IMG/VR virus record: IMGVR_UViG_3300020125_000460
Span: 1 to 22,932 of that record
DNA length: 22,932 nucleotides
Strand: one strand, 5' to 3'
Origin: a virus
How positions within the stretch are numbered: position 1 is the first letter of the stretch; each line of letters begins with the position of its first letter. The notes below the pieces were generated by a model that was given only the letters and a program-made list of their open reading frames with translations, had not been told where the DNA came from and searched no databases. This document shows positions 98 through 19,050 of this stretch, one piece after another. A program made the translations under genes and the position numbers.

Positions 98-290
98 CTT
101 TTGCCTCCCAGGCCAGCAGATTGGCAGACTTGTGGACTCCCTCGGGGAGGCAGTCGCAATCTTCGAGCAGGCAGTCGTCGGGGTCACACACGTGCGCGAC
201 ACACGCGACCTGCATGCAGCCACAGTCTGGGCAGTGGTACTGACCGATTGGCAACCCGCATAGGGCCATCGGGTCCTCAGGACACTTCAT
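90..290 (-). CDS. Cysteine-rich 66-aa protein, probable zinc binder
   Basis: The chosen start is the ATG at 290-288, which overlaps the previous stop as ATGA; a longer frame from 383 runs back over the upstream gene and is not needed. The 66-residue product has ten cysteines (residues 3, 11, 20, 23, 25, 30, 35, 40, 45, 47), with CPDCGC around residues 20-25 and histidines at 19 and 33. This suggests one or two small zinc sites. No known family is recognised. It is the fourth gene of the leftward operon from 1839 and overlaps the next, edge-truncated gene. Confidence 0.7.
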   Translation of the reverse strand: MKCPEDPMALCGLPIGQYHCPDCGCMQVACVAHVCDPDDCLLEDCDCLPEGVHKSANLLAWEAKGE

Positions 291-487
291 ATCCGGTCTC
301 GTAGCAGTGTTGGTAATCCAAGCTCCTGGCGCCAGTGCACAAATACGGCTCGAGCAGCGCGCCAGGCGCTGGCCTCCTGGCACAAGCAGTGGCGGATCTT
401 CTCATCGCCGACAGCCTGAAAATCGTGGAGTTCCTCGAGCGCGTCGAGGGCCCTGCCGATCATTTCCAGGTCACGCTGATCGATCAT
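287..487 (-). CDS. Hypothetical 66-aa helical protein
   Basis: This small gene starts MIDQRDLEMIGRALDALEEL and is linked by ATGA overlaps to both neighbours (start with the gene ending at 484, stop with the gene starting at 290). The sequence is predicted from its spacing of Leu/Ile/Ala to be mostly helical and has no membrane segment or signal. I do not recognise a family. Its place in the operon behind a ParB-like protein gives no specific role. Confidence 0.65.
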   Translation of the reverse strand: MIDQRDLEMIGRALDALEELHDFQAVGDEKIRHCLCQEASAWRAARAVFVHWRQELGLPTLLRDRI

Positions 488-813
488 GGCTTCTTGGTGA
501 GTTCCAGGTACACCCTCAGGCTGCCCGCGGCCGGCTGCACCTTGGCCTTGACGATGAAGCCGCGCTTCCGCATGGTGTCGGCGATGCCGTTGCGCATGCG
601 CTTGTACTCGTCTTCATTCGGAACCCGTAGAACCGTCACCAGCCCTTGCTCCTGATCGGCGATCAATCGAGCGATCAGCTCCTGCCAGACTCCCCGCTGG
701 CCAAGCCGCTGCGCGTCCTGAGGGACGTCACTTGGAGCGATGCTCTCGAGGACTTCCACGCTAGTCGAGCTTGCCTTGGCCAGCTTTCGGATGCGGGGAA
801 AGCTTCTGTTCAC
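484..813 (-). CDS. Hypothetical 109-aa protein
   Basis: The start is GTG at 813-811, only 3 nt after the stop of the ParB-like gene, and the stop overlaps the next gene as ATGA, so translation is probably coupled. The N-terminus is basic (MNRSFPRIRKLAKASS). The second half contains NEDEYKRMRNGIADTMRKRG followed by alternating strands (GFIVKAKVQPAAGSLRVYLEL), a pattern of a small alpha/beta domain. It is not assigned to a family. Confidence 0.7.
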   Translation of the reverse strand: MNRSFPRIRKLAKASSTSVEVLESIAPSDVPQDAQRLGQRGVWQELIARLIADQEQGLVTVLRVPNEDEYKRMRNGIADTMRKRGFIVKAKVQPAAGSLRVYLELTKKP

Positions 814-816
814 GTC

Positions 817-1839
817 TCACCGCATCTCCCCTTGGGCCATCGACAGCTGCTGCGGCGCGGGATTGCGCGCGGACGAGGTCGTCCAGTTGTGGGCCACATC
901 GCGGAAGGTAACCGGGCGCAGGCGGCTCCCGAAGGCGCCGATGTTGGTTTCCCAGGCAGGCAGCAGGTCCTTGACCTTCTTTCCTTGCTTGCGCCAGCGG
1001 TCGTTGACGATGTCGACGACGGCCAGTCCGAACGTGTTGCCGCGGGTGCCGACGTCGACACGCTGCCAGATCGAAGCCGCGCGGTCATACCAGGCATTCA
1101 GCCCGACGGCGCCGACCATGCGCGCAACCTCGGTCAGCTCTACCTTGTCGGCGTAGCGCACCCAGAACCCCAGGATGCCCTCGAGCTGCATCTCGCCATA
1201 GGCGTCGCGCTCCGGGCCGAAAGCGGTGGTCAGGAAGCCCAGTACCCAGTCGAGTGCCTCGGCGCCGCCGCGGGCGTAGATCCATTCAATCCTGGCCACG
1301 GCCTGAATCTTCCCATCAGCCTTGGCATACGCACCGTTGACCTCGAGGTCGTGCTTCGCGGCGATCTCGACGATGTGCAGTGCTGCCTTGTCGCCGGCGA
1401 CCAGCTTGGAGCGGAACCTGGTCCAGGGCGTCTGGCCTAAGACCGTCCCAAGCTTGACGTACAGGTCAGCCTCCTGGGCCCGCTCGAGCCCGCTGTGGAC
1501 CATCGCCGGTAGCTGCAGCATTCCCTTCTCGTACGCGACGACGCGGCGATGATTGCCGTCAATTACGAAGAGCGTGTTGTCGGGCCTCCTGGAGATGGTC
1601 AGCGGCGAGACAGCCAGCGGATCCCATTCCACTCTGAGCTGCTTCAGGCGCGATTCTGACAAAGGCCTCGCGTACCCCTGACCGTGAGGCGGCGCGTAAT
1701 CGACATTGAGGGTCGCCACGTGCACCCTCTCAAGCTTGTAGGTCGGTAGCTTGAATGGGTGCCGCCGCACCAGCTCTCGGGCTTCAGCCTCACCCTCTGC
1801 GTCGTCCAGATCGTCCATGCGTCGTTGCTCTACAGCCAC
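817..1839 (-). CDS. ParB-like (DGxHR) protein, DUF6551-like
   Basis: The 340-residue protein begins with GTG at 1839-1837, preceded by AAGGGAG at about 6 nt, a clear ribosome site; the later ATG at 1818 has none. The N-terminal half carries a ParB/Srx-fold signature: GYARPL at 55-60, then FVIDGNHR at about 91-98, which matches the DGxHR element. A helical C-terminal region follows. The same layout (GYARPL, VIDGxHR, then LY.K.G...QTP..R) is found in the protein at 7121-8284, so the two are paralogues; this one lacks the other's C-terminal zinc motif. ParB-like phage proteins of this type are thought to be DNA-binding or nuclease-like, but the activity of this family is not established. It heads the leftward operon. 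Confidence 0.8.
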   Translation of the reverse strand: MAVEQRRMDDLDDAEGEAEARELVRRHPFKLPTYKLERVHVATLNVDYAPPHGQGYARPLSESRLKQLRVEWDPLAVSPLTISRRPDNTLFVIDGNHRRVVAYEKGMLQLPAMVHSGLERAQEADLYVKLGTVLGQTPWTRFRSKLVAGDKAALHIVEIAAKHDLEVNGAYAKADGKIQAVARIEWIYARGGAEALDWVLGFLTTAFGPERDAYGEMQLEGILGFWVRYADKVELTEVARMVGAVGLNAWYDRAASIWQRVDVGTRGNTFGLAVVDIVNDRWRKQGKKVKDLLPAWETNIGAFGSRLRPVTFRDVAHNWTTSSARNPAPQQLSMAQGEMR

Positions 1840-1866
1840 ACGTGCTCCCTTCTAGCCTTCTTGAAG

Positions 1867-1894
1867 ACTTTACGCTAAGACGTGGAAATGTAAA
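1867..1894 (-). promoter_or_regulatory. Promoter of leftward operon 1
   Basis: On the minus strand TTTACA (1894-1889) and TAAAGT (1872-1867) are separated by 16 bp and lie 27 nt upstream of the GTG at 1839, which has a good AAGGGAG ribosome site. This gives a short normal leader. The -35 matches consensus at 5 of 6 positions and the -10 at 4 of 6. Confidence 0.5.
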
Positions 1895-2019
1895 CATCGA
1901 GCCTAGCGCCATGAGTACAAAACCCGGGGGTCGCAGAGGGGAGCGTGTGTGAGGGGAGCAGCTCAACCAAAGCATCGGCGTGTAGTGCGGTTCAGCCGCT
2001 CTGGAGTACGCACAGTGCT

Positions 2020-2025
2020 TACAAT
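2020..2025 (+). promoter_or_regulatory. -10 hexamer for leaderless xre transcript
   Basis: TACAAT at 2020-2025 lies 7 nt before an in-frame GTG-ATG pair at 2033/2036, so the expected transcription start falls at or next to the start codon. No ribosome site is present. No good -35 is visible at 16-18 bp, so an activator may be involved. Confidence 0.45.
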
Positions 2026-2035
2026 TCTAGGTGTG

Positions 2036-2257
2036 ATGACGGGGGATGAAGCGCGTGCTGTCAGACGGGGACTGAAGCTGAGCGCTCGTCGAGTTGGCGA
2101 AGAGGTTGGTAGCACTGAGTCGAGTATCTACCGTTGGGAGCAACGTCGTGGCGGCGCTGTGCCCAAAATGTACGAGCGGGCGCTCCGCGACTTGGTGCGC
2201 GAGCTGAGTGAACGTGGCCGTGACAACGGCGGGAGGCGGGCTGCCAGGACTGGTTAG
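2036..2257 (+). CDS. Small XRE-type helix-turn-helix regulator
   Basis: The 73-residue product starts MTGDEARAVRRGLKLSARRV, followed by GEEVGSTESSIYRWEQRR, the typical pattern of a lambda-repressor-like (XRE) helix-turn-helix with the recognition helix around SSIYRWE. It is only the DNA-binding domain, with no dimerisation or cleavage domain. I chose ATG 2036 (or the adjacent in-frame GTG 2033) because the helix-turn-helix begins there and a -10 element sits just upstream; a frame back to 1949 adds only poor sequence. It is divergent from the ParB-like operon and precedes the recombinase, so it could be the lysogeny switch regulator or an excision factor. Which of these is not decided by the sequence. 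Confidence 0.75.
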   Translation: MTGDEARAVRRGLKLSARRVGEEVGSTESSIYRWEQRRGGAVPKMYERALRDLVRELSERGRDNGGRRAARTG

Positions 2258-2321
2258 CCCCGGAAATGGGGTGATGCCCATGTCAGGCCTGCTCATGTCG
2301 CCGCCGACCGACCATAAGAAA

Positions 2322-2347
2322 ACGCCCCTGGCCGTGACCAGAGGCGT
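2322..2347 (-). terminator. Leftward intrinsic terminator candidate
   Basis: ACGCCCCTGG (2322-2331) pairs with CCAGAGGCGT (2338-2347) with one C-A mismatch and a 6-nt loop. Read leftward the stem is followed by TTTTCTT. It would stop leftward transcription before the xre gene, although no leftward gene is visible just to its right. Confidence 0.5.
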
Positions 2348-2351
2348 GGCT

Positions 2352-2393
2352 CGCGACGAGCCTGTAGTTGGCACCCAAACGCGTCGCGCTTTT
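2352..2393 (+). terminator. Rightward terminator-like hairpin after xre
   Basis: CGCGACG (2352-2358) and CGTCGCG (2382-2388) form a perfect 7-bp stem with a 23-nt loop, followed by CTTTTC. The loop contains a small TTGG/CCAA pairing and a copy of the GGCACCCAAAC motif seen before starts of the 13-16 kb operon. It would separate xre from the recombinase promoter. Confidence 0.4.
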
Positions 2394-2431
2394 CAGTATG
2401 CCCGACGGCGCCCAATCCCTGCTGGTGATAC

Positions 2432-2463
2432 TGCGTTATTTGACACTAGAGTTCGATAACGCA
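2432..2463. promoter_or_regulatory. 32-bp dyad: operator or recombination site
   Basis: TGCGTTAT (2432-2439) and ATAACGCA (2456-2463) are perfect inverted 8-bp arms around 16 bp. Across the whole 16-bp half-sites 12 of 16 positions are symmetric. The dyad covers the -35 element and spacer of the promoter at 2440-2469, as expected of a repressor operator. Serine-integrase attachment sites are also imperfect dyads located next to the integrase gene, so an attP role is an alternative. Confidence 0.6.
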
Positions 2464-2469
2464 TATAAA
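2440..2469 (+). promoter_or_regulatory. Recombinase promoter
   Basis: TTGACA (2440-2445, full consensus) and TATAAA (2464-2469, 5 of 6) are separated by 18 bp. This is the best sigma-70-type promoter in the window. The expected start of transcription is near 2476, very close to the first ATG at 2479. Confidence 0.65.
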
Positions 2470-2489
2470 GGGAGTATCATGCGATCCCA

Positions 2490-3974
2490 ATGCAGTTCGA
2501 ATCGACCCGAAATTGGTTGGACCGAACGTCTGCCATGGTACTGAGCCAGTACGACGAGCGTCTCGCTCGTCCCGACCGTCCGCATCTCAATGTCGTCACG
2601 CCGCAGCGCGCCGTCGGCGTCATCCGCGTCTCGAAAGTCGGCAAACGCAAGCTCAAGGGCGAGGAGCATTTCGTCTCCCCGCGCGAGCAGGAGGCAAAGC
2701 TTTCTGAGTGGTGTAAGTCGCAGGGCATCACCCTGACCACCGTTCACAAGGAACTCAATGTCTCGGGCAAGACGCCGCTGGCGAAGCGCACAGGCTTGCG
2801 GCCGGCCATCGAGCAGATAGAGCGCGGTGGCGCCGACATTGTCGTCGTCGCGTACTTTGACCGACTGGTGCGCTCGCTTGCGATTCAGGCCGATGTCCTC
2901 GAGCGTGTCGAGAACGCCGGCGGCAAGGTCGTGGCGCTGGACATCGGCGAAGTCACCAACGAGACCGCCGCGTCCTGGCTAAACGCGACGCTGCACGGCT
3001 TGATGGCTGAATACCATGTCCGCATCACCCGCGAGAAAACCGATGTCGCCCGTCGCGATGCGGTCGCGCGCGGCGTCCCGCCTTTTCCCAACCTGCCGCC
3101 TGGGTATGTCAGGAACACGAGCGGGCAGCTCGTTCCCGTCGATAAAGAGGTGCCTGTCGTGATCGAGGTATTCAGGATGCGCGCCGATGGCGCCTCCCTG
3201 ACGCAGTGCCGCGACTACATGCGCGAGCATGGTATTGACCGTTCTTACCGCGGAACGCAGACGATGTTCTCGAACCGTCTGTACCTGGGGGAGATCCACG
3301 TCGGCAAGTTGGTCAACTTGATGGCCCATGCGCCCATCATCGATCGAGCGTTGTTTGAGCGTGCTCGCGACCGGGTTACGCCGCGAGGGCGGCCATCGAA
3401 ATCAGAGCGGCTCCTGGCCCGCGTGGGGGTGCTGGTGTGCGGCAGTTGTGGTGCGCGGATGACGAATGCCAATGTCTGGAACCGCACCATGAAGAAAGCC
3501 AAGGGTGGCTCTCGTCGCCGTTATGCGCTGTATCGCTGCGGCATGCCTGGTGACTGCCCGTCGCCGGTGACCATTTCCGCAACCCTGGTCGAAGACGCCG
3601 TCGAGCGTGAGGTGCGCCAGCGCCTGATCAACAAGGCGGGCTCAGCCAGTCTGGAACAGGAGATCCGTGGTGCTGCTGCCCAGGCAGATCAAGCGCAGAG
3701 GCGGCTCAAGAATGCCATTGCCCTGCTCACCGGGGACGATCTGGATGATCTCGAGGAGGCGCAGGCGAGGCTTGCAGAGATGCGTGTGGCTGCGCGCGTT
3801 GCGGCTGACCGATACGAGCAGTTGAAGGGCTCAACGGAGCCGCTGACCGTCTTGTCGGCGACTCATGACTGGGAAGAGCTGACTGTGCCTGAGCGACGCG
3901 CCCTTATCCGCGCCGTGCTGCGCCGCGTTGAGATCCACCCCGCTTCTGTGGGAGATCGGATTCGGTTTTACTGA
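2490..3974 (+). CDS. Large serine recombinase (phage integrase)
   Basis: The 494-residue protein has the large serine integrase layout. The resolvase-type catalytic domain has the nucleophile serine in VGVIRVSKVG (S48) and the arginine motif FDRLVRS (123-129). A Recombinase domain follows (about 195-300), then a zinc ribbon with C317, C320, C350 and C356, a coiled coil near 390-440, and a short C-terminal segment. It would catalyse site-specific integration and, with a directionality factor, excision. The first 39 residues precede the catalytic domain. The start is uncertain: ATG 2490 has no ribosome site, ATG 2535 is an in-frame alternative, and the good AAGGGAG site serves an out-of-frame ATG at 2479. 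A promoter, a dyad and a downstream terminator frame the gene as a single unit. Confidence 0.92.
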   Translation: MQFESTRNWLDRTSAMVLSQYDERLARPDRPHLNVVTPQRAVGVIRVSKVGKRKLKGEEHFVSPREQEAKLSEWCKSQGITLTTVHKELNVSGKTPLAKRTGLRPAIEQIERGGADIVVVAYFDRLVRSLAIQADVLERVENAGGKVVALDIGEVTNETAASWLNATLHGLMAEYHVRITREKTDVARRDAVARGVPPFPNLPPGYVRNTSGQLVPVDKEVPVVIEVFRMRADGASLTQCRDYMREHGIDRSYRGTQTMFSNRLYLGEIHVGKLVNLMAHAPIIDRALFERARDRVTPRGRPSKSERLLARVGVLVCGSCGARMTNANVWNRTMKKAKGGSRRRYALYRCGMPGDCPSPVTISATLVEDAVEREVRQRLINKAGSASLEQEIRGAAAQADQAQRRLKNAIALLTGDDLDDLEEAQARLAEMRVAARVAADRYEQLKGSTEPLTVLSATHDWEELTVPERRALIRAVLRRVEIHPASVGDRIRFY

Positions 3975-4098
3975 GCCGCTCTTCCAGGATGCGTCGCGCG
4001 GCGGCGTCCAGGATGCGCTGCACCTCGGCGTCGGCCTCCGGCGGTAACGTCGGCGGCACGTAGTCAGGGTCGACGGTGAACGGCTTGCGCAGGGGCAT
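3904..4098 (-). CDS. Possible 64-aa antisense small protein
   Basis: A leftward frame begins MPLRKPFTVDPDYVPPTLPP, continues with a helix (EADAEVQRILDAAARRILEE) and ends in a basic tail. The first 45 residues look protein-like, but the last 71 nt overlap the recombinase in antisense, and the start codon lies inside the terminator stem at 4092-4123. There is no convincing ribosome site. It may be a chance frame. Confidence 0.3.
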   Translation of the reverse strand: MPLRKPFTVDPDYVPPTLPPEADAEVQRILDAAARRILEERLSKTESDLPQKRGGSQRGAARRG

Positions 4099-4127
4099 GC
4101 ACCACGAGTGTGGGGCATGCCCCTTTT
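4092..4127 (+). terminator. Intrinsic terminator of the recombinase gene
   Basis: GGGGCATGC (4092-4100) pairs with GCATGCCCC (4115-4123). Inside, CCAC and GTGG extend the stem around a GAGT tetraloop. TTTT follows immediately. This is a strong rho-independent terminator 118 nt after the recombinase stop. Confidence 0.85.
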
Positions 4128-4135
4128 GCTGCGGT

Positions 4136-4164
4136 GCTCAAACGCTCAACGCCCGTCGATTGCG
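4136..4164 (-). repeat. 29-bp element, copy 1 (inverted)
   Basis: Read on the minus strand this copy is CGCAATCGA, six variable bases (CGGGCG), then TTGAGCGTTTGAGC. It is inverted relative to copies 2 and 3 and forms the left edge of the PAS-gene cassette, just after the recombinase terminator. Confidence 0.7.
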
Positions 4165-4217
4165 CGTTTGCGCCTCCGGGGTAATCACGCAGGGTGGGTA
4201 GCCGGCACTCGGTGAGG

Positions 4218-4244
4218 TTGTACTGAGTAGGGGACGGTTACAAT
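4218..4244 (+). promoter_or_regulatory. Promoter candidate for the PAS gene
   Basis: TTGTAC (4218-4223) and TACAAT (4239-4244) lie 15 bp apart, slightly short. The -10 hexamer is the same as that before xre. The predicted transcription start, near 4250, coincides with the first bases of repeat copy 2. Confidence 0.4.
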
Positions 4245-4248
4245 CGTG

Positions 4249-4277
4249 CGCAATCGAATTGAATTGCGTGTTTGAGC
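4249..4277 (+). repeat. 29-bp element, copy 2
   Basis: CGCAATCGA, then ATTGAA, then TTGCGTGTTTGAGC. It differs from copy 3 at 4 of 29 positions, three of them in the six-base centre. It sits at the predicted transcription start of the PAS gene, an operator-like position. Confidence 0.75.
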
Positions 4278-4345
4278 GCCCTGGGGCCGTGCAGGGGCGT
4301 AGAACATCCAATAGATAACTGACGGGCTGAAGGGGGCTTCGGGCC

Positions 4346-5308
4346 TTGTACCGCGATACGGCCGAACAACTCACATGCATCATCCTCGATGACGGAGTTG
4401 GGACGCTCCGTGGCATCAGTCAGGATTTCTGCGAGCTTCTGGGTTACCGCAACGAAGAGATGGTCCACACGCCGGCCAGCGCCTGGTTTCGGCCTGGTCA
4501 GGGGGAGAATTGCGGCGGGGACGATCAGCTTCGGGATCTGTTCGCAAGAGCCAAGGACACGCCTGGCGTGGTGCACCGCGCAGCGACGTGGGTGCCGACC
4601 AACCGCGGTGCTGGTCGTATCGGCGTGACCGTGGAAGTTCAATACACCGCGGACTATGGCGGCGCCTGGATTGGGGACGCGGTCAGGCTTGACTACCTGC
4701 CGGGGTTCGATACCACGCCGGTTCGACGCGTGCCCCAGGACCAGGCCGCTCTGGCTGTTGCACAGCTCACGGCGTTGATCGCGCAGGTCACCGATCAGCC
4801 GTATGCGAACCACGGCGACTACCTGGACGGTATGGAACGCGCACGGCGGCTCGAGGACGCTGTACGGCGGCTCGAGCAGCTCGAGGAGAAGGTCGACCAG
4901 GCGCTTCGCGTCAGGGGCCAGGCGGTGCAGCTTGATCTGGGCTTTGGGCTCAAGGCTGTCAAGGGCCGCAAGCAGCCGCAGACAAAGTACGGCCGCACGC
5001 CTGAGGAGTTCACTGAGGGGCTGCACCATTCGTTTGATTGGATCGGCGAGCATGAGGACGAGGAACCGACCATGGAAAACGTGGGCTTGCACTGGTGGCC
5101 AAAGCCGATCACGTCGGGCACGCTGCGTACAGGCCTGGAGAAGCATGGCTTTGTGCCCAAGGAGCACAGCGGCCGTGACTGCGCAGGCGTGGTGAAGCGC
5201 CTGTTCCAGGAGTACCACGGGCGCATGGAGGTCGCCGCAGCCTTCATCATCACGACCGGCTGCAACATGCTCCACCTCGGATTGCACCACTACCTGATGC
5301 GCTTCTGA
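4346..5308 (+). CDS. PAS-domain protein, probable sensor or regulator
   Basis: The 320-residue frame can only start at TTG 4346 (an in-frame TGA lies at 4328), with AGGGGG about 10 nt upstream. Residues about 10-118 resemble a PAS sensor domain: CIILDDGVGTLRGISQDF followed by CELLGYRNEE matches the usual PAS opening. A coiled coil spans about 163-190. The C-terminal part (215-300) contains a Trp-rich segment (NVGLHWWPKP, then TSGTLRTGLEKHGFVP) that could be a DNA-binding or partner domain but is not recognised. No kinase or cyclase domain is visible. The gene stands alone, between a terminator and a terminator-like hairpin, and between inverted 29-bp elements, which suggests a separately acquired regulatory gene. 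PAS proteins are uncommon in phages. Its ligand and output are unknown. Confidence 0.7.
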   Translation: MYRDTAEQLTCIILDDGVGTLRGISQDFCELLGYRNEEMVHTPASAWFRPGQGENCGGDDQLRDLFARAKDTPGVVHRAATWVPTNRGAGRIGVTVEVQYTADYGGAWIGDAVRLDYLPGFDTTPVRRVPQDQAALAVAQLTALIAQVTDQPYANHGDYLDGMERARRLEDAVRRLEQLEEKVDQALRVRGQAVQLDLGFGLKAVKGRKQPQTKYGRTPEEFTEGLHHSFDWIGEHEDEEPTMENVGLHWWPKPITSGTLRTGLEKHGFVPKEHSGRDCAGVVKRLFQEYHGRMEVAAAFIITTGCNMLHLGLHHYLMRF

Positions 5309-5319
5309 CTGGTCAGCCA

Positions 5320-5348
5320 CGCAATCGAATTCGGTTGCGCGTTTGAGC
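5320..5348 (+). repeat. 29-bp element, copy 3
   Basis: CGCAATCGA, then ATTCGG, then TTGCGCGTTTGAGC. The first 20 bp are an 18-of-20 palindrome centred on CGAATTCG. It lies between the PAS gene and the RHH gene, and its last 10 bp (GCGTTTGAGC) are the exact inverse of the outer end of copy 1, so the two bound a 1,213-bp unit. Confidence 0.75.
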
Positions 5349-5374
5349 ACCACAAGCCAATTCTGGCGATGCAT

Positions 5375-5399
5375 CCTCGGCCGACATGCCGAGGATTTT
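5375..5399 (+). terminator. Terminator-like hairpin spanning a start codon
   Basis: CCTCGGC (5375-5381) pairs perfectly with GCCGAGG (5388-5394) around a 6-nt loop and is followed by ATTTTTATT. It has the form of an intrinsic terminator for the PAS gene, yet the loop and 3' arm contain the ATG (5386-5388) of the RHH gene. It may therefore act as an attenuator or as a hairpin that hides the start codon. Confidence 0.6.
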
Positions 5400-5553
5400 T
5401 ATTGAGATCACCAAGGCAGAGCAGGCCGAGGTGTATGACCGCGCGAAGCGGGAAGGTGTCGCCCCGGGCACGCTGGCGACCTGGCTGTTCCGCGAGAAGC
5501 TCGCAGAGCTGAAGCACGAGCCGCCCGAAAACAAGCTCGAGCAGGCGGCGTAG
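5386..5553 (+). CDS. Ribbon-helix-helix-like small regulator
   Basis: This 55-residue protein begins MPRIFIEITKAEQAEVYDRA, then KREGVAPGTLATWLFREKLAEL. A short basic beta strand, a helix, a Gly-containing turn and a second helix match the ribbon-helix-helix (CopG/Arc) pattern. Members of this fold bind DNA as dimers through the strand. There is no clear ribosome site; the ATG is embedded in the hairpin at 5375-5394. It is the first gene of a seven-gene operon ending at 7048 and is followed 3 nt later by the next start. It is a candidate to bind the CGCAA/TTGCG dyad of the 29-bp elements upstream; that link is inference. Confidence 0.6.
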   Translation: MPRIFIEITKAEQAEVYDRAKREGVAPGTLATWLFREKLAELKHEPPENKLEQAA

Positions 5554-5556
5554 GCC

Positions 5557-5898
5557 ATGACCACCACCGACGACCAGGGCATCGCCATGCCCGATCTCGA
5601 CGGCATCGAGTGGCTCAACGCTGACGACGACGAGCGCGTGGTCCTGACGGACCGCGAGTGCATGTTCATCCGGAACGCGTACCGCGATGGCTATACCGAC
5701 GGTCACGGCGCTGGATACAAGGCCGGCGGCTACGACGCCATGCGCGCCGCGACGGCGCTGACGACGCTGCTGAGCAACCCGCTGTGGCAGCGCAACATCG
5801 AGCTGCTGGCGCATTTCGCCGACATGGAGACAGCGCCGAAACGTTCATCGGATCGTCCGCAGGCCAAGCTTTGGCCTGATCCAGTGGGGGCGTCCTAG
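5557..5898 (+). CDS. Hypothetical 113-aa protein
   Basis: The gene starts 3 nt after the RHH stop and its TAG shares a base with the GTG of the next gene. The product is acidic at its N-terminus (MTTTDDQGIAMPDLDGIEWL) and has a central DGYTDGHGAGYKAGGYDA segment, a Gly/Tyr-rich repeat-like stretch seen in many small phage proteins without assigned function. There is no membrane segment. The role is unknown. Confidence 0.7.
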   Translation: MTTTDDQGIAMPDLDGIEWLNADDDERVVLTDRECMFIRNAYRDGYTDGHGAGYKAGGYDAMRAATALTTLLSNPLWQRNIELLAHFADMETAPKRSSDRPQAKLWPDPVGAS

Positions 5899-6302
5899 TG
5901 GCGGCGCTGTTGGGCTTCGTCATGTTCGCCCAGGCGGTGTGCAGCGGCAGCGATGTGTGCGTCGACGTGCCCGCTGTCGAGACTCCTGCGGTCGACGAGG
6001 CCGCTGTCGACGAAGAGACGCCGGTGGTGGTCGTGCCCGCCTGCGACATGCCGATCTGCGGTGCGCTGGGCGCCCGCCTGTATTGCATCGAAGGCCTCGA
6101 GTCTCGCCACTACGGTGGCGCCGTCAATCCCTACAGCGGTGCGCGGGGGTACCTCCAGTGGATCGGCTCAACGGCAAGAGCCTGGGGCGTGGTCCCAGGC
6201 AACAGGCAGTCCGAATGGTCAACCGCGGCGCGCATGCTGGCTACCAGCGGCGAGGCGTTCTTTCGGTCACAGTGGCCGGTCACCGCGAGACTCTGCCCCT
6301 GA
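5898..6302 (+). CDS. Secreted lysozyme-like transglycosylase (Rpf/SLT type)
   Basis: This 134-residue protein starts with GTG overlapping the previous TAG. A hydrophobic N-terminus (MAALLGFVMFAQAVCSG) may be a signal or anchor, followed by a Val/Asp/Pro-rich linker. Residues 60-134 match a lysozyme-like fold: CIEGLESRHYGGAVNPYSGA then RGYLQW, with E68 as the likely catalytic acid, and a closing segment FFRSQWPVTARLC. C63 and C133 are placed as in the disulfide of resuscitation-promoting-factor-like domains. It would cleave peptidoglycan. Its location in the early small-gene operon, next to a one-helix membrane protein, rather than with tail genes, is unusual: lysis or lysogeny-related wall remodelling are both possible. 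Confidence 0.7.
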   Translation: MAALLGFVMFAQAVCSGSDVCVDVPAVETPAVDEAAVDEETPVVVVPACDMPICGALGARLYCIEGLESRHYGGAVNPYSGARGYLQWIGSTARAWGVVPGNRQSEWSTAARMLATSGEAFFRSQWPVTARLCP

Positions 6303-6307
6303 GCGGT

Positions 6308-6433
6308 GTGTATTTGTATGACGAAAACCGCGCCTTCTGGCGAGGGGTGACCGTGGCGCTGGCGCTGACGCTGCTGATGGCCATCATCGTCGGCCTGGTG
6401 GTGCTGATCGTGTGGGGTCTGCGTCAACCATGA
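6308..6433 (+). CDS. 41-aa single-helix membrane protein
   Basis: A GTG at 6308, 5 nt after the transglycosylase stop, opens a 41-residue frame: a polar start (VYLYDENRAFWRG), one hydrophobic helix of about 23 residues (residues 14-36) and a short WGLRQP end. Its stop overlaps the next ATG as ATGA. One-helix proteins next to a wall hydrolase are sometimes holins or spanin-like, but one helix and position alone do not prove this. The ribosome site is weak. Confidence 0.6.
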   Translation: MYLYDENRAFWRGVTVALALTLLMAIIVGLVVLIVWGLRQP

Positions 6434-6597
6434 CCCTGTCACTGTCGTTCACGTTGCTACTGAAGATTGCCGAGAAGGCCGCTGCCATGCGCGTGGCGCA
6501 GAGGCGGTACTTCAAGGAGCGGACGCAATCCGCGCTGGCTGAATCGAAGCGGCTCGAGCGCGAACTTGATGCGCTGCTCATGGAGCTGGAGCCGTGA
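6430..6597 (+). CDS. 55-aa coiled-coil protein
   Basis: ATG 6430 overlaps the previous stop (ATGA) and its own stop overlaps the next GTG (GTGA), which supports this start over an upstream in-frame one at 6412. The product MTLSLSFTLLLKIAEKAAAM is followed by a highly charged helix (ERTQSALAESKRLERELDAL) predicted to form a coiled coil. The first 13 residues are hydrophobic, so it may touch the membrane together with its neighbour. Function unknown. Confidence 0.6.
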   Translation: MTLSLSFTLLLKIAEKAAAMRVAQRRYFKERTQSALAESKRLERELDALLMELEP

Positions 6598-6800
6598 GCC
6601 GCTTCCTGCTCGTGGAGCTCGAGGAGGACCTGGCCAAGCACGGCACCACCCACGACACGGCGATGCTCGGCTGCAAGTACGTGCCAGGCGTCCGCTCGGT
6701 GACCGACGTGTCGGCGATCAGCCGCGAAACCCTGGATGACTGGCTGCTGCCAGCAGACCAGGCGATGCCGCGCAAGACGCGGCGAAAGCTCGGGGTCTGA
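6594..6800 (+). CDS. Hypothetical 68-aa protein
   Basis: It starts with GTG in a GTGA overlap and ends in a TGATG overlap with the next gene. The sequence MSRFLLVELEEDLAKHGTTH has a leading beta strand, and the rest includes SAISRETLDDWLLPADQAMP. No family is recognised. The operon context (small, coupled genes) supports expression. Confidence 0.65.
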   Translation: MSRFLLVELEEDLAKHGTTHDTAMLGCKYVPGVRSVTDVSAISRETLDDWLLPADQAMPRKTRRKLGV

Positions 6801-7048
6801 TGGCTGGCGGCGGCGACCGGCGGGCCTGGGTGATCGTCTCGCGTACCGAGGCGCTGGCGCTGCTGGATGCCGCGAGTGGGATCACCAGCGACAAATGGTC
6901 CGCGGCGCTGGGCAGGGCTGTACGCGTCATCGAAAACCAGCTCGGCTGGATCGAGGACGGCAGCGCGCTGCCGACACGCCATTCGGTCATCAGCGAAGCC
7001 CTCAGACGTGAGCGAGAGGAGGTACAGCCAGACGTCCAGAGCGCCTAG
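6800..7048 (+). CDS. Hypothetical 82-aa protein
   Basis: The ATG at 6800 overlaps the previous TGA by one base. The protein has an AWVIVSRTEALALLDAASGI segment and a helical C-terminal half ending in acidic and basic residues (EALRREREEVQPDVQSA). It is the last gene before a strong terminator, so it closes the operon that starts at 5386. No function can be assigned. Confidence 0.65.
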   Translation: MAGGGDRRAWVIVSRTEALALLDAASGITSDKWSAALGRAVRVIENQLGWIEDGSALPTRHSVISEALRREREEVQPDVQSA

Positions 7049-7061
7049 CTCTGTATGCACG

Positions 7062-7090
7062 CGGCACCCCACTGGGGTGCCGTCTTTTTG
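7062..7090 (+). terminator. Strong intrinsic terminator
   Basis: CGGCACCCC (7062-7070) and GGGGTGCCG (7074-7082) form a perfect 9-bp stem with a 3-nt loop, followed by TCTTTTTG. It separates the small-gene operon from the replication operon. No obvious new promoter lies in the 30 nt that follow, so partial read-through or antitermination may feed the next operon. Confidence 0.9.
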
Positions 7091-7120
7091 TCCGCCCTAC
7101 ACACACACCAGAGGTGCTGT

Positions 7121-8284
7121 ATGCGAGTTCTAGAGGCACCGGCGGCATCCCAGACCTATCCCGCGGAGGTGGTTCGCGGGACGTTCTTCGAGCACGACGT
7201 GCCGCTTTCAAAGATGTTCGTTCACTTCCGAACTGAGTCAGGCGGCTACGCCCGACCACTGCGCCCGTGGCGCGTCAACAAGCTGATGTCGGAGTTCGAC
7301 CGTCAAGCGCTCGGCGTCATCTTGCTGTCGATGCGCAATGACGGGACGTTTGCCGTGATAGACGGCCAGCATCGCAAGGACGCCGCGGAGCGTATGGGCC
7401 TGACGGCCATGGACGCCCTGGTCTTCATCGATCTGAGCCTGGAGGACGAGGCGCGCCTGTACCGCAAGTTCGGCGACTACCTGAAGCAAACTCCGTTCGA
7501 CCGCTACCACGCCGGTGTCGCCGAGCGGTTGCCTGAGTATCTCGGCATCCAGCGTGTGCTCCACGAGCTGGGCCTGCACGTGCCGCACATCGCGGGCGGC
7601 GGCCTGCACGGGGTGGACGCTGTGGACGCGCTGGTCAAGGTGGCCACCACGTACCGCCTCGAGGGCCTGAACAACGCGCTGCGCCTGCTGTTCGACGCCT
7701 GGGACGGCGAGCCGCGGGTGTACCGCAGCCTGACCATCATCGGCACGGCCATGTTCCTGGCGCGCTTCCAGGACCATCCGTCCTTCAACCGCAAGCGCCT
7801 GATCACGCGCATGAAGCGGGAAGGCCTGAGCAAGGTTGAGCGCCAGGCGTTCGTCATCCGCGACGCCAACCTGGCACCCAACCCGAACTCCGGCTGGGGC
7901 CAGGCGCTGCTGCAGCTGCACGACAAGGGCCAGCCGCCGGGCAACGAACTCGGCGAGTGGCCAAAGCGGCACCTGTCCGAGGTGGTCGTCGCGAAGATGG
8001 CCGCGACCATGCGCAAGACCATCGCGGCCATGACGCCCGAGCAGCGCTCGGCGATGGCGTACAAGGCCAACGCGGCACTCACGCCTGAGCAGCGCAGCGA
8101 GCGGTCGGTCAAGGCCAATGAGACGCGGCGGAATGGATCGGGCGCAGTGAATCCCCGCATGGTGAAGTGCCGCATCTGCCGCGCCGGCGTCGGGCAGACG
8201 TGCATCACTGACGCCGGCCGCCGCGCCAAGGCTTCGCATCGGGTTCGGTACGAAGATGCGCTGGCCGGTGGCGGCGCGCACTAG
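7121..8284 (+). CDS. ParB-like (DGxHR) protein with C-terminal zinc motif
   Basis: ATG 7121 has AGAGGTG 7 nt upstream; a frame back to 7055 would translate the terminator and is rejected. The 387-residue product carries GYARPL (42-47) and FAVIDGQHR (77-85), the ParB/Srx-like DGxHR signature, and LYRKFGDYLKQTPFDRYH as in the paralogue at 817-1839. Near the C-terminus are two TPEQRS repeats (residues about 307-338) that resemble NUMOD3-type DNA-binding repeats, then CRICRAGVGQTCITDAGRRA with a following SHRVR, a small zinc motif common in actinobacterial phage proteins. It is probably DNA-binding. As first gene of the replication operon it may help initiation, partition or nucleolytic processing; the activity itself is not known. 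Confidence 0.8.
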   Translation: MRVLEAPAASQTYPAEVVRGTFFEHDVPLSKMFVHFRTESGGYARPLRPWRVNKLMSEFDRQALGVILLSMRNDGTFAVIDGQHRKDAAERMGLTAMDALVFIDLSLEDEARLYRKFGDYLKQTPFDRYHAGVAERLPEYLGIQRVLHELGLHVPHIAGGGLHGVDAVDALVKVATTYRLEGLNNALRLLFDAWDGEPRVYRSLTIIGTAMFLARFQDHPSFNRKRLITRMKREGLSKVERQAFVIRDANLAPNPNSGWGQALLQLHDKGQPPGNELGEWPKRHLSEVVVAKMAATMRKTIAAMTPEQRSAMAYKANAALTPEQRSERSVKANETRRNGSGAVNPRMVKCRICRAGVGQTCITDAGRRAKASHRVRYEDALAGGGAH

Positions 8285-9520: not shown

Positions 9521-9761
9521 GTATGGGTTGACCTTGAGGTCCGCCATTCAGTCGGCGCAGCAAATTCGGCAGTGGACCAGTGACCCGCGAGCACGCGCGG
9601 AAGCGGTGCGGCTGATCAGGGTGCTTGAGGTATGCGCGGATGAGCAGGCCGGGGAGCGCCTCAATCGCTGTGAAATCTGTGGTTGCAGATTGCCGCCTAT
9701 GCGGTATCGAGCAAGCAAGAATGAGCGGTGTGTCTGCTGCCAGCAGGTGGGGCCGTTTTGA
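9513..9761 (+). CDS. TraR/DksA-like zinc-finger protein
   Basis: This 82-residue protein has a helical N-terminus and a C4 zinc module, RCEICGCRLPPMRYRAS then ERCVCC (C53, C56, C73, C76). The spacing and the CG..lP..R element are typical of the DksA/TraR zinc finger. Phage and plasmid TraR proteins of this length bind RNA polymerase through the secondary channel. The characteristic acidic tip residues of TraR are not evident in the N-terminal half, so a different use of the zinc module is possible. The gene overlaps its upstream neighbour by 8 nt and its downstream neighbour by 1 nt (TGATG). Confidence 0.6.
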   Translation: MLEYGLTLRSAIQSAQQIRQWTSDPRARAEAVRLIRVLEVCADEQAGERLNRCEICGCRLPPMRYRASKNERCVCCQQVGPF

Positions 9762-12001
9762 TGGCTGGCCCCGAATTGACTTACGTCTATGTTGATACTG
9801 CCCTCGGCGCGCTGAATTATCGCAACCACCCGCGCCACTACAAGAAGCTCGGCGGTGACAGTCACGGCCCTGAGCGCTACATCAGTCATCGTCGCGCAAC
9901 CGTTGACCTGGTGGAGTGGACGCGTGCCCACGTCAACGCCAATGGCAATGGCACCGTTGAGGGGTATGACGGGCTGGTCTGGGATGCCAGCCTGCCGTTC
10001 GACTTCGACGATAAGCAGGATCCTGCTCGCGCCCTGGTATGGGTGCGCCAATTCCTGGATTGGCTCGAGTACAACGAGGTGCCCCTGGATGCGCTGCGTG
10101 TGTCTTTCAGCGGGGCCAAGGGCTTTCATCTAGAGATTCCGCACACACTGTTCGGCGGCTTCGAGCCCAGTGACCAACTCCACATTTACGAGAAAGCCGC
10201 CGCCACGGAGCTGATGCGCGGCATTCCGTTCGATACTTCGGTCTACGACAAGCTCAGACTGTGGCGACTGGATAACAGCTTCAACAAGAAGGGGCAGCGC
10301 TACAAGATCCGGCTCAGTATCCACGAAGTGCGCACCCTGGGTATGGCGGACATCCTGGAGTTGGCGAAGTCACCCAGGCCCAGGGAGTCGCTCCCCCCGG
10401 TGGAAGAGGATGACGGCTGGAATCCTAACGAGTATTTGGTCGGTGTCTGGCAACGGGCACAGGGTGTACAGGCGGCCATAAATGCGGTCGCTGACACGCC
10501 AACCTGGTCGGACGAAGAGCATAGCCGGGTCTTCCTGGCCAGCATCCAGGCCGCCATCGCCGCGAGTTGGCCGCACAACGATCCCAGGGTCAGCCGCCAC
10601 ACCGACTACCTGTTGCCGCTGAGCGGGTATCTGGCCAGGCACATGCCCGCGGCGGCCGTCAGTATGGTGCTGAAGGAAGCCGCGCGCTGGGCAGGCGATG
10701 CAAGCTTCCTGGAGGACCGTACGCGGCATTGGGAGGACGAGATCGACCGATTGGCTGAAGATTCAGCCAGACGGATCGCTACCGGCCAGCCATGCGCTGG
10801 GCTGCCGACGGTGGTCAAGCACTGGCCGGAGCTAGCTGAGGTGCTGTCGACCAGCTTTGTTGATAGCGCCAGTACGCCGAAGCCAGGCAGCGCCGCGAAG
10901 GTGAAGGGCTTCACCCTGACCGGCCTGGCCGGTGCACTGGAGGAGCCGCCTGAGGTGACCGCATACGTCGTGGACGGCATGTTCCCGGTAGGCGGCGTGT
11001 CGCTGATCGGTGCGAAGCCCAAGGTCGGCAAGAGCGTCCTGGCGCGCAACCTGGCCATGAGCGTGGCGCGCGGCGAGCCGTTCCTGGATCGAGCGTGCAT
11101 TCAGGGCACAGTGATTGTTTTGGCGCTCGAGGAGAAGCGTGCCGAAGTCATCAACCATTTCCGCATCATGGGCGGCCTGGATGAGCCGGTCCACCTGCAC
11201 ACTGGCGCGGCGCCCGACAGCACCAAAGAGGGGCTGGCAGCACTGGCCAACATCATTGCGATGTACCAGCCGGTGCTGGTCGTGGTGGATCCCGTGTTCA
11301 AGCTGGTGCGCGTCAAGGACTCGAGCGACTACGCAGAGCTGACGCACGCACTTGAGCCGGTGATCGAGCTGGCGCGTCAGACTGGCTGCCACATCGCAGT
11401 GACGCACCACCTCGGCAAGATGGTCCGCGAGGGCGGCGACGACGTTCTGGGCAGCACAGCGATCTTCGGTGCCGTCGACACGCTGGTGCTCATGCGGCGC
11501 ATGAAAGATCAGCGGCGCACCTTCGAGACGATCCAGCGTTACGGCAAGGACATCAGCGAAACCGTCGTGCCCCTGGACGAGGCCAGCGGCACCATCAGCC
11601 TTGGCGCGGCGGTGTCCGACCTGAAGATGACCGAAGCGAGGGCCAAGGTGTTGGAGGTGATCCAGAAATTTGCGGACGACTACTGGGGCGATACGTCAAC
11701 GATTGTCGAGGCGGCTGAATTGCAGCGACAGCTCGCCTTGAAGGCGCTCAACGACCTGCTCAAAGAGGGTGTTATTGAGGTCCGCGGCAGCGGGGTACGG
11801 AATGATCCGAAGCGTTACCGTCTGGCTCGCGTTCCGGACGGTTTTGAGATTGGAGAGATTCGGTTTTCGGTTCCCACCTATATAGCCGGAACCGAAAACC
11901 GAATTGTTTGCACCCAATGTCAGACCCGCGAGTTGCTGTCCCATGAGGTTGACCGCGGGGTCTGTATGGTGTGCGCCAACAAGGCGGCAGGCTTGTGGTG
12001 A
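9761..12001 (+). CDS. Primase-helicase replication protein (AEP primase + RepA-like ATPase)
   Basis: The 746-residue protein starts at ATG 9761 in a TGATG overlap. The N-terminal third resembles an archaeo-eukaryotic-type primase: LPFDFDD (metal-binding acids, 78-84), SGAKGFHLEI (117-126) and RLDNSFNKKGQRYKI (169-183). A linker is followed by a RecA/RepA-like helicase ATPase: Walker A GAKPKVGKS (417-425), LALEEKRAEV (454-463), Walker B LVVVD (506-510) and VTHHLGK (547-553). The C-terminus has a winged-helix-like region (625-690) and a C4 zinc motif (C717, C720, C735, C738). It should prime and unwind phage DNA. A perfect 17-bp inverted repeat lies in the DNA encoding residues 700-715, between the last two domains. 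It is the central gene of the replication operon. Confidence 0.88.
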   Translation: MAGPELTYVYVDTALGALNYRNHPRHYKKLGGDSHGPERYISHRRATVDLVEWTRAHVNANGNGTVEGYDGLVWDASLPFDFDDKQDPARALVWVRQFLDWLEYNEVPLDALRVSFSGAKGFHLEIPHTLFGGFEPSDQLHIYEKAAATELMRGIPFDTSVYDKLRLWRLDNSFNKKGQRYKIRLSIHEVRTLGMADILELAKSPRPRESLPPVEEDDGWNPNEYLVGVWQRAQGVQAAINAVADTPTWSDEEHSRVFLASIQAAIAASWPHNDPRVSRHTDYLLPLSGYLARHMPAAAVSMVLKEAARWAGDASFLEDRTRHWEDEIDRLAEDSARRIATGQPCAGLPTVVKHWPELAEVLSTSFVDSASTPKPGSAAKVKGFTLTGLAGALEEPPEVTAYVVDGMFPVGGVSLIGAKPKVGKSVLARNLAMSVARGEPFLDRACIQGTVIVLALEEKRAEVINHFRIMGGLDEPVHLHTGAAPDSTKEGLAALANIIAMYQPVLVVVDPVFKLVRVKDSSDYAELTHALEPVIELARQTGCHIAVTHHLGKMVREGGDDVLGSTAIFGAVDTLVLMRRMKDQRRTFETIQRYGKDISETVVPLDEASGTISLGAAVSDLKMTEARAKVLEVIQKFADDYWGDTSTIVEAAELQRQLALKALNDLLKEGVIEVRGSGVRNDPKRYRLARVPDGFEIGEIRFSVPTYIAGTENRIVCTQCQTRELLSHEVDRGVCMVCANKAAGLW
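11858..11904. repeat. Perfect 17-bp inverted repeat inside the replication gene
   Basis: ATTCGGTTTTCGGTTCC (11858-11874) and its exact reverse complement (11888-11904) flank 13 AT-rich bases (CACCTATATAGCC). Each arm contains two CGGTT units, so four copies lie in 47 bp, with a further CGGTT at 11839. The region is clearly richer in A+T than its surroundings. It is a candidate replication origin, initiator site or RNA hairpin. Confidence 0.85.
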
Positions 12002-13673: not shown

Positions 13674-13825
13674 AGTTTGGGTGCCTTTCGGAATGGGATG
13701 ATGTTGGCCGCCAGCGCTTGGCGACACTGTGGCGAGCATGGCTCCGAGGTATAGAAGTCGCCGCGTGCGGACACCGGAGTCTGGTGTCCGCACGGGTGGT
13801 GCAGGAGCCCGTGCTTGGGGCTCAT
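13670..13825 (-). CDS. 51-aa Cys/His protein
   Basis: The start is ATG 13825 (ATGA overlap, with AGGTG 6 nt upstream). The sequence MSPKHGLLHHPCGHQTPVSA contains HHPCGH, followed later by CSPQC, a likely four-ligand zinc site. Its last codons (KAPKL) are encoded by the start-associated sequence of the next gene, so that motif is both coding and regulatory here. Confidence 0.6.
   Translation of the reverse strand: MSPKHGLLHHPCGHQTPVSARGDFYTSEPCSPQCRQALAANIIPFRKAPKL
13674..13685 (-). promoter_or_regulatory. Start-associated sequence, copy 1
   Basis: On the minus strand GAAAGGCACCCAAACT directly precedes the GTG at 13673. The core GGCACCCAAAC is shared with copies before the starts at 15283 and 15511. 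GAAAGG at about 10 nt could be a weak ribosome site. Confidence 0.6.
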
Positions 13826-14403: not shown

Positions 14404-14481
14404 TTTCAGGACCGGAAAGATTGCCCCGGACTTTGGACCGGGCGCCGGGCCTTCCACCGGCCAGAGCCGGTGCCATCGGTA
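14404..14481 (-). promoter_or_regulatory. Folded intercistronic leader
   Basis: This 78-nt gap (86 nt with the motif that ends it) is the longest inside an otherwise nearly gapless operon. Read leftward it contains CACCGGC-TCTG-GCCGGTG (14472-14455), a perfect 7-bp stem, then a second GC-rich hairpin around 14435-14451 (GG-CCGG/CCGG-CC) and two CCGG units. No U-tract follows, so it is more likely an mRNA leader structure than a terminator. Confidence 0.45.
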
Positions 14482-17062: not shown

Positions 17063-17620
17063 GTGCATCGGCGCTGTACCGTCTGCGCCTACCCCCGAGC
17101 GGACTGGCTGAACCAGCAGCTAAGCCAGCACGCCCAGAACATCCTGAAGCTGGCCCGCGAGACTGGCCTCAATCGCAACGCTCTGGCCAATCACCGCACG
17201 CTGCACCTACCCAGCGGGCCATACAGCGAGGACGAGCAGAAGGGCGAGTTCCTCGGCGCCTTCAAGACCAGCGGTGACCTCAAGGGCTCAGCCGAGACGG
17301 CCGGCGTCAGTCGCGGCAGGGTGCAAGAGTGGCTCGAGCATGATGAAGCGTTCAGCTTCCGCTTCAACATGGCCAAGGCTGAACTTGTCGAGCACCTCGA
17401 GGTCACTGCTGTCGAGCGTGCCACCGTCGGCGGGAAGTTCGTCCGCAAGGTGTACCGCGGGGAGCACCTGTACGAGGAAGTCCACGAGTGGCGGCCGTCT
17501 GACGCAGCCCTGATCAAGCTGCTCTCGAGCCTCAAGCCCGAGGTCTACGGCGAGAAGATCAGCGTCACCCAGACCAGCATCGTCAAAGCGGTGGACATGA
17601 ATGCCTGGGCTGAAGTCTGA
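17063..17620 (+). CDS. terS: Terminase small subunit
   Basis: The 185-residue protein starts with GTG 17063, probably leaderless. Its N-terminus has a CTVCAYPR motif with a following LANHRTLHL, a zinc-binding helix-turn-helix module common in phage small terminases. The middle contains DLKGSAETAGVSRGRVQEWL, a second helix-turn-helix, then DEAFSFRFNMAKAELVEHLE and the typical terminal segment DAALIKLLSSLKPEVYGEKI. It should recognise the packaging site and deliver DNA to the large subunit encoded just downstream. It opens the virion operon. Confidence 0.85.
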   Translation: MHRRCTVCAYPRADWLNQQLSQHAQNILKLARETGLNRNALANHRTLHLPSGPYSEDEQKGEFLGAFKTSGDLKGSAETAGVSRGRVQEWLEHDEAFSFRFNMAKAELVEHLEVTAVERATVGGKFVRKVYRGEHLYEEVHEWRPSDAALIKLLSSLKPEVYGEKISVTQTSIVKAVDMNAWAEV

Positions 17621-17629
17621 CCAATGAAG

Positions 17630-17686
17630 AACCCCCGCAGCGGCATGCGCGCGAACGGCTCGTCAGCCGTGACCGCCTTGGGGGTT
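17630..17686 (+). other. Structured RNA between the terminase genes
   Basis: The 83-nt gap between the terminase genes can fold into one long nested structure: AACCCCC (17630-17636) with GGGGGTT (17680-17686), then GCGG (17640-17643) with CCGC (17673-17676), then ACGGCT-CGTC-AGCCGT (17655-17670). No U-tract follows, so it is not a simple terminator. It could modulate translation of the large terminase, protect the mRNA, or be the DNA packaging recognition site, which often lies near terS. Confidence 0.6.
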
Positions 17687-17703
17687 GATTCCAGGCTACC
17701 ACG

Positions 17704-19050
17704 ATGCCAGCGCTGAAGTCTGAACTCGTCGTCGAGCACATCACCGAGAAGCAGACCTTCGACGACGACGCCCGTCCCTACCGCCCCTTCGGCGCCAACC
17801 TCGAGCTGTTCCGCGCGAGAGATCGCGAGGTGGTGCTCGAAGGCCCAGCCGACTGCGGGAAGTCCAGGGCGTGTCTCGAGAAGCTCAACCTGGCCATGCT
17901 GAAGTACCCCGGTGCCCGCGGCGCCATCGTCCGTCAGACCAGGAAGAGCCTGACGTCGACGGCCATGAGCACCTTCGAGCGGTACGTCGTGCCGCCCGGG
18001 GCGCTCAAGCTGTGGAACGGCGAGGAGTATCGCTACACCAACGGCTCGAAGGTGTACCTGTTCGGCCTGGACGATCCTGAGCGCCTGAAGTCCTTCGAAG
18101 GCGACTTGATCTACGTCCAGGAGGTCAGCGAGGTTGCCAAAGAGGATTACGAGCTGCTGACGACGCGCGTCACCGGCCGCGGTTCCACGATGCCGTACCA
18201 GCAGATCATCGCCGATCTCAATCCGCGCGAGCCCAACTGGTGGCTGTACGAACGCGAAAGCAGCGGCGCCACCCGCTTCCTGAAGGTCACCCATGCCGAC
18301 AACCCCACCATTACCCCTGAGCGCCTGGCGCCCCTCGAAGCCCTCACTGGCTACCTCCGAGACCGCCTGCTGCTTGGTCTGCGGGTGGCCGCCGAAGGTA
18401 TGTTCTTTACCGAGTTCGATCCTCGTCACCACCTGGTCGATGCCTTCGATCCCCCGGACGATTGGGTTCGCTGGGTATGCGTCGACTACGGATTCTCCCA
18501 CCCATGGGTTGCCCTGTGGCTGGCTCGTGAGCGCCCGGGCGGCCGCATCTACGTCTATCGTGAACTGAGCCTCACCGGGCTCCGCGATGAGCAGCAGGCG
18601 CGCCTGATCCTTGATCGCAGCAAGGGCGAACAGCTCGCCCAGGTGGTGCTCGATCCGAGCATGTTCAACAACCGCGGTGAGCAGCAGCGGCCATCGATCG
18701 CTCACGTGTACGCCCAGGCTGGCGTGCCGAACATCGTCGAGGGCTTCAACCGGCGAGTTCAGGGCTGGGCGATTGTGCGACGTGCACTGGCGTGGGGTCC
18801 CGACGTCGCCGAGCAGCGGGGTGTCGAACTCGACTCACTGCCGCGGCTGAAGATCATGCACCAGCGCTGTCCAGAGCTGGTCAAGAACCTGCCGGCCATG
18901 GTGCGCGACAGATTGGACCCTGAGGACGTCGCCGACAAAGTCGGCACCACCCGCACGCCCGACGATGAAGTCGACGCCCTCAGGTACGGCCTGTGCGCGG
19001 ACGCCCAGCCAACTCGCTCCGCGGAAGCCCGCGACCTGGTGTTCGGGTGA
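17704..19050 (+). CDS. terL: Terminase large subunit
   Basis: The 448-residue protein has the ATPase and nuclease halves of the PBSX-type large terminase. The Walker A-like element is GPADCGKS (47-54), the Walker B region is LIYVQE (135-140), where a Gln precedes the catalytic Glu instead of Asp, and LLTTR (151-155) fits the coupling motif. The nuclease half has VDYGFSHPW (D261), VVLDPSM (D317) and DDEVDALRY (D420-D424), the acidic metal cluster. It should translocate and cut concatemeric DNA into the capsid through the portal. Length is usual for the family. The stop overlaps a micro-ORF (GTGA). Confidence 0.93.
   Translation: MPALKSELVVEHITEKQTFDDDARPYRPFGANLELFRARDREVVLEGPADCGKSRACLEKLNLAMLKYPGARGAIVRQTRKSLTSTAMSTFERYVVPPGALKLWNGEEYRYTNGSKVYLFGLDDPERLKSFEGDLIYVQEVSEVAKEDYELLTTRVTGRGSTMPYQQIIADLNPREPNWWLYERESSGATRFLKVTHADNPTITPERLAPLEALTGYLRDRLLLGLRVAAEGMFFTEFDPRHHLVDAFDPPDDWVRWVCVDYGFSHPWVALWLARERPGGRIYVYRELSLTGLRDEQQARLILDRSKGEQLAQVVLDPSMFNNRGEQQRPSIAHVYAQAGVPNIVEGFNRRVQGWAIVRRALAWGPDVAEQRGVELDSLPRLKIMHQRCPELVKNLPAMVRDRLDPEDVADKVGTTRTPDDEVDALRYGLCADAQPTRSAEARDLVFG

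Follow-up and report, generated by a model that had tools for sequence, protein, structure and literature searches.

To our knowledge, the origin from which replication starts is not known for most environmental phages. The DNA analysed here, a complete IMG/VR record of 22,932 bp (referred to below as the window, locus W), raises the question of whether a perfect inverted repeat inside the gene for a putative primase-helicase marks such an origin, as the original prediction had proposed, and which protein would read it. The window is a piece of a probably temperate tailed phage, as it contains a serine-integrase-like gene (2490-3974, + strand), a ParB-like gene (7055-8284, +), and genes for the terminase small and large subunits (17063-19050, +).

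An Inverted Repeat near the 3' End of the Putative Initiator Gene

Inspection of the window reveals an inverted repeat at 11858-11904 with arms that are exact over 17 bp and lie 13 nt apart (Table 1). The four CGGTT units noted in the original prediction are all present, as is the fifth at 11839, and they can be refined to two tandem CGGTT(T/C)(T/C) units of 7 bp in each arm. The spacer, CACCTATATAGCC, has the 13-base length first described, but it is only moderately AT-rich (7/13). The AT content of the dyad region is 0.53 versus 0.36 for the whole record, and a long AT-rich block is absent.

The dyad is the strongest inverted repeat of the window. Under the same scoring scheme, inverted repeats in the rest of the 22.9-kb sequence score 12 at most, and neither 55 other 400-bp windows nor 60 dinucleotide shuffles of the 400-bp window that holds the dyad yielded a score as high. 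When the encoded peptide was recoded synonymously according to local codon usage, 4 of 4,000 recodings scored 17 or more; the peptide therefore does not account for the dyad, in agreement with the earlier claim that the symmetry goes beyond what coding needs.

The arm sequence is repeated nowhere else in the window, and the exact dyad is absent from every other viral contig searched. Dyads of the TGTTTT type were found in only two viral contigs, both already known, and scans of genome contigs returned no close relative and hence no host or prophage context. Elsewhere in the window, compact inverted repeats with a score of 12 occur at 4091-4124 and 13764-13794 (loops of 4 and 7 nt, respectively), and a match to the Type-P5 twister ribozyme lies at 14426-14480 on the - strand (38.5 bits versus an Rfam gathering score of 37.6 bits).

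Table 1. Features of the initiator gene and its dyad (window coordinates)
Feature	Position	Strand	Description
Initiator gene	9728..12001	+	757 codons; putative AEP-type primase, RecA/RepA-like helicase (AAA_25), winged helix, linker, zinc-motif tail
Winged-helix domain	11612..11824	+	Residues 629-699; AlphaFold pLDDT about 90 or more
Putative recognition helix	11726..11764	+	Residues 667-679; similarity among relatives tracks iteron similarity
Isolated fifth iteron	11839..11845	+	CGGTTTT
Left dyad arm	11858..11874	+	ATTCGGTTTTCGGTTCC; ATT followed by iterons CGGTTTT (11861-11867) and CGGTTCC (11868-11874)
Core/spacer	11875..11887	.	CACCTATATAGCC; candidate unwinding point
Right dyad arm	11888..11904	-	GGAACCGAAAACCGAAT; the two iterons of the left arm, inverted
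C-terminal CxxC...CxxC zinc-motif tail	11909..11974	+	Downstream of the dyad; read from sequence

Domain Organization of the Encoded Protein

As judged by homology, the initiator gene probably starts at the ATG at 9761. A primase region is located at about residues 82-224 (PHROG matches phrog_16345 and phrog_18685), and homology to PriS-like phage primases suggests that it is of the AEP type. AAA_25 spans residues 401-564 (Pfam), and the sequence matches of the helicase in Pfam and the PDB were to AAA_25 and to RSF1010 RepA/RadA/Twinkle. A profile of relatives matched RSF1010 RepA (hmmsearch against PDB sequences, E 3.6e-7), and the predicted model matched hexameric helicases, including RepA (Foldseek, TM about 0.7 on the target).

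The winged helix was also predicted with confidence in a separate model, and its fold matches were consistently to MarR, Fur, and Z-alpha proteins, although with weak E-values (Foldseek). The predicted structure suggests that this is the origin-binding domain of the initiator. Between the winged helix and the CxxC...CxxC tail, residues 707-723 were predicted with low confidence (pLDDT below 50), and the dyad encodes residues 711-726 (peptide IRFSVPTYIAGTENRI), mostly within this stretch. Structure prediction thus places the dyad over a linker between the winged helix and the zinc motif, where it had been expected. The zinc-motif tail is missing from relatives in which the gene ends ahead of the dyad. 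That a primase region, an RSF1010-RepA-like helicase, and a winged helix, as recognised from sequence and structural models, are joined in a single chain, and that these are the parts required of an initiator, was counted in favour of an origin.

The Dyad in Close Relatives

Homologous loci were gathered by searches (L003-L045, further loci, and cultured phages). In nine close relatives, with protein identities mostly of 56-63%, the letters next to the end of the winged helix differ, but this region nearly always contains an inverted repeat, in which a pair of 7-8-bp repeats flanks an AT-rich core. Each arm in this close family is built from a tandem pair of 7-8-bp units that share a loose consensus near YYGTNTT, and the cores of the relatives are CTACTAGTA, CCTATATAG, CATATACATA, and similar, CTACTAGTA or TATA-like sequences being shared. 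The dyad regions read GTATCCGTATTCCGTATT... in L012, CTTTCTGTCTTGCTGTCT... in L011 (where the entire dyad is present twice), CTGTATTGCTGTATT... in L015, GTCTTGTTTTCTTGTTTT... in L017, and TCCGTATTTCTGTATTCC... in L008; the symmetry in L010, L016, and L018 is weaker and not unique within the locus.

The strongest inverted repeat of the locus adjoins the end of the winged helix in 7 of 10 non-redundant close-family members (window included). For this count, 400-bp test windows were placed by hand just after the winged helix, and the chance of such placement, about 8e-9, is only indicative because the bounds in seven loci were set with the repeat known. The alignment of homologues that the original prediction had called for shows that the place and architecture of the dyad are kept in close relatives despite sequence change, and this conservation supports the dyad as a candidate for an origin inside its initiator gene.

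The dyad is in frame and translated in W, L007, L010, L011, L012, and L015-L018, where it falls in the disordered linker, whereas in L008/L009, L022, L031, L041, and L045 it is noncoding and lies just past the stop codon. Since it is coding in some relatives and noncoding in others, the conserved part is DNA and not peptide; across these sequences the DNA element appears as the constant part and the linker peptide as its by-product. A second long inverted repeat, CAGGTCATGGAGTCCATT...AATGGAGTCCATGACCTG, is present several kb from the initiator gene in L008 (11522-11568) and L009 (11878-11924).

Gene-end Repeats in Distant Relatives and Cultured Phages

In distant relatives (25-40% identity), paired dyads or iteron arrays often sit at the end of the gene. 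Paired dyads were found in L041, L045, and L020. The iteron is GGTTCC in L021, CGTTCCC in L023 (10 of 11 locus copies in the gene-end cluster), and CCATTGAT in L042 and L043 (9 of 9 locus copies in the L042 cluster). In the cultured Rhizobium phage RHph_N65 the iteron GCGGAGAT has all 12 of its locus copies at the gene end, and in BirdInFrench the same holds for the 5 copies of GTGTGACA. In Rhizobium phage 16-3, 13 of 13 copies of GCGTGACA lie at the end of gene p101 in both orientations (L093 4081-4408) and none in the rest of the 6.6-kb locus; on its sequence, this cluster is a candidate origin in a cultured phage. These iteron units were chosen by eye or from a 7-mer count, and the resulting copy numbers are descriptive; the 7-mer test itself had controls and shuffles.

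Among the relatives compared, the arrangement is common but not universal. Dyad and iterons are both missing in L039, L040, L044, L046, L047, L092, L098, and L100, and no dyad is present in WestPM and Pherbot, two Microbacterium phages with a related helicase whose genes end shortly past the helicase match.

Covariation of the Repeats with the Recognition Helix

With arms extracted automatically from 10 close-family members, the distance between arms (iterons) correlated with the distance between putative recognition helices (r = 0.64) and, more weakly, with that between helicases (r = 0.36). The partial correlation of arm and recognition helix was 0.57 with the helicase held constant (Mantel p = 0.0004), and hand-assigned arms agreed with the automated result. 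In this small sample (n = 10), with relatedness controlled through the helicase only, the similarity of the repeats appears to follow the recognition helix of the winged helix more than the helicase.

Two loci from different metagenomes, L011 and L014, are 100% identical over positions 1-7000. Past 7 kb their divergence grows gradually through the helicase and on into the winged helix and linker; ungapped figures exaggerate this drop past a 3-bp indel, and a gapped alignment was also made. L014 terminates within its putative dyad. Recombination fits as the cause of this switch, and an assembly chimera could be the cause.

These comparisons bear on the possibility that the symmetry arose by chance or through a selfish palindromic insertion into the linker. 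Linkers do tolerate inserts, and the letters vary among relatives. However, the place and architecture common to most close relatives, the position of the dyad just outside the gene in others, its covariation with the winged helix, and the confinement of the arm sequence to a single site in the window all speak against such an origin of the repeat, which is contradicted by the homologues and scarcely credible.

DNA or RNA, and Signals around the Dyad

The dyad strand can fold, with a folding energy z of -6.3, and the dyad lies within or beside coding sequence, as might be expected of an mRNA hairpin that affects how the message is translated or how stable it is, or that uncouples the zinc tail. 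The arms of relatives contain 19 mismatches in 352 arm pairs, of which 8 are A-C and 3 are G-T. There is therefore no preference in the mRNA sense for wobble pairs, which an mRNA hairpin would tolerate, and an mRNA hairpin was rejected on this spectrum (19 mismatches only). Moreover, the direct iteron arrays of relatives would not make one hairpin. A function in mRNA is very improbable. A transcription terminator was likewise rejected, there being no T run at the dyad, as was a known RNA family, there being no Rfam match at the dyad. Of the selection on DNA or RNA structure put forward originally, the DNA part is upheld by a place and architecture that are kept while the bases change, and the RNA part is disfavoured by the lack of wobble preference.

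A folded single strand could also act as a priming or loading hairpin for the primase domain, in the manner of the RSF1010 ssi sites or the pRN1 stem-loop, and this role may coexist with binding of an initiator. The RepB' primase recognises hairpin ssi sites (PMC4434180), and the pRN1 initiator gene is followed by an essential stem-loop whose shape is conserved and whose sequence is not (PMC4234260); the dyad strand, too, is able to fold. However, the tandem units within the arms and the unpaired extra units favour duplex binding, the arrays of relatives are mostly direct repeats, and the tracking of the recognition helix by the iterons again points to recognition of a duplex. A folded strand is accordingly rather unlikely as the explanation of the dyad. 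The self-priming hairpin of the original prediction finds no support, for related reasons: the arms are tandem direct repeats, the element can be duplicated or spread into many iterons and may sit outside coding sequence, and the arm mismatches are without wobble preference.

Alternatively, the dyad may be an operator through which the winged helix or another repressor would regulate transcription or its own expression, with no origin involved. MarR/Fur-type winged helices, the fold matched here, bind inverted repeats, and palindromic sites of 17 bp are of typical operator size. Against this, the gene is 2.3 kb long and holds the dyad at its 3' end, no sigma-70-like promoter is present near the dyad, up to 13 iterons occupy this place in relatives, and the binding domain is fused with a helicase and a primase. 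An operator is thus possible but unlikely.

The check by cumulative GC skew that had been suggested speaks neither for nor against an origin at the dyad. In G008, a complete relative with a 127-bp terminal repeat, the maximum at 1823 is 0.2 kb from the dyad at 1619, but in G001, a complete relative with its start repeated at its own end, dyad and maximum are 11 kb apart. The extrema of the window, at 1925 and 17058, do not coincide with the dyad.

A Proposed Origin and Its Relation to Known Systems

The sequence comparisons are best explained, with a probability of roughly 0.75, if the dyad is the initiator-binding core of an iteron replication origin that is read by the winged helix of its own primase/RepA-like helicase. 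The winged helix, encoded immediately upstream, would bind the 7-bp iterons, four or five in number, in inverted pairs, and this binding would position two sets of the initiator's own RepA-like hexameric helicase so that they face each other across the AT-richer core. There the helicase would open the duplex, and both strands would be primed by the AEP primase domain that the same chain contains. The comparisons show the position, geometry, turnover, and covariation of the site; we infer that the winged helix binds the dyad and that melting, priming, and replication take place there, on the basis of the domains present and of known systems. The winged helix and its site would travel as one exchangeable specificity cassette, placed in frame within the disordered linker in the window and just past the stop codon in relatives, and the site would lie in the 3' end of the gene because the two stay together.

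In phage lambda, iterons inside the coding sequence of gene O are bound by O itself (PMC4488673). Repeated sites lie inside or directly beside the initiator gene here too, and sites and DNA-binding domain vary together among relatives (n = 10). Unlike the present protein, however, lambda O is neither helicase nor primase and binds via its N-terminal half, and in lambda four iterons of 19 bp adjoin an AT-rich block, whereas the present primase-helicase gene holds, in its 3' end, two inverted pairs of 7-bp units around a short core. The SaPI Rep and SCCmec Cch2 helicases use a C-terminal domain to recognise short iterons that directly follow the helicase gene (PMC7581432). The present arrangement, as such, resembles this in combining a helicase that has a predicted C-terminal DNA-binding domain with iterons immediately 3', but the helicase here matches AAA_25 and RSF1010 RepA and has a fused primase region, and the site is an inverted pair inside coding sequence. 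By analogy, the window system most likely works like the lambda-O and SaPI-Rep origins.

The helicase of the pRN1 protein ORF904 is of the SF3 type, and a stem-loop of 100 nt begins 54 bp after the ORF904 gene (PMC4234260). As predicted for the protein described here, ORF904 combines an AEP primase, a helicase, and a winged helix in a single polypeptide, and both loci have a gene-end dyad of conserved shape and unconserved sequence. The helicase here is AAA_25/RecA-like and not SF3, however, and by helicase class the window system is not of the pRN1 type. The hexameric helicase RepA of RSF1010 is the best solved sequence relative of the helicase here, but in the RSF1010 oriV system the RepA helicase and RepB' primase are separate, whereas the domains are in one protein here. 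The iteron binder of RSF1010, RepC, is separate from both helicase and primase.

The original prediction largely holds, hairpin priming and GC skew apart, and the arrangement is best read as the lambda-O and SaPI-Rep plan realised, in varied form, in a different protein family. There is perhaps an even chance that phage initiators of this primase/RepA-like-helicase kind make up a large family whose genes bring along their own origin, a detachable 3'-end winged-helix-plus-iteron cassette in which the recognition sequence turns over fast at constant geometry. No earlier description of this initiator/iteron family, or of the general cassette pattern, was found in the open-access papers searched, which cover part of the whole literature. 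The dyad would then be a DNA element indifferent to being translated or not. If this is true, sequence alone would suffice to locate an origin and its reader in phages that carry the module, the cultured Rhizobium phage 16-3 among them, and a specificity code could be learned and tested from natural pairs of winged helix (recognition helix) and iteron.
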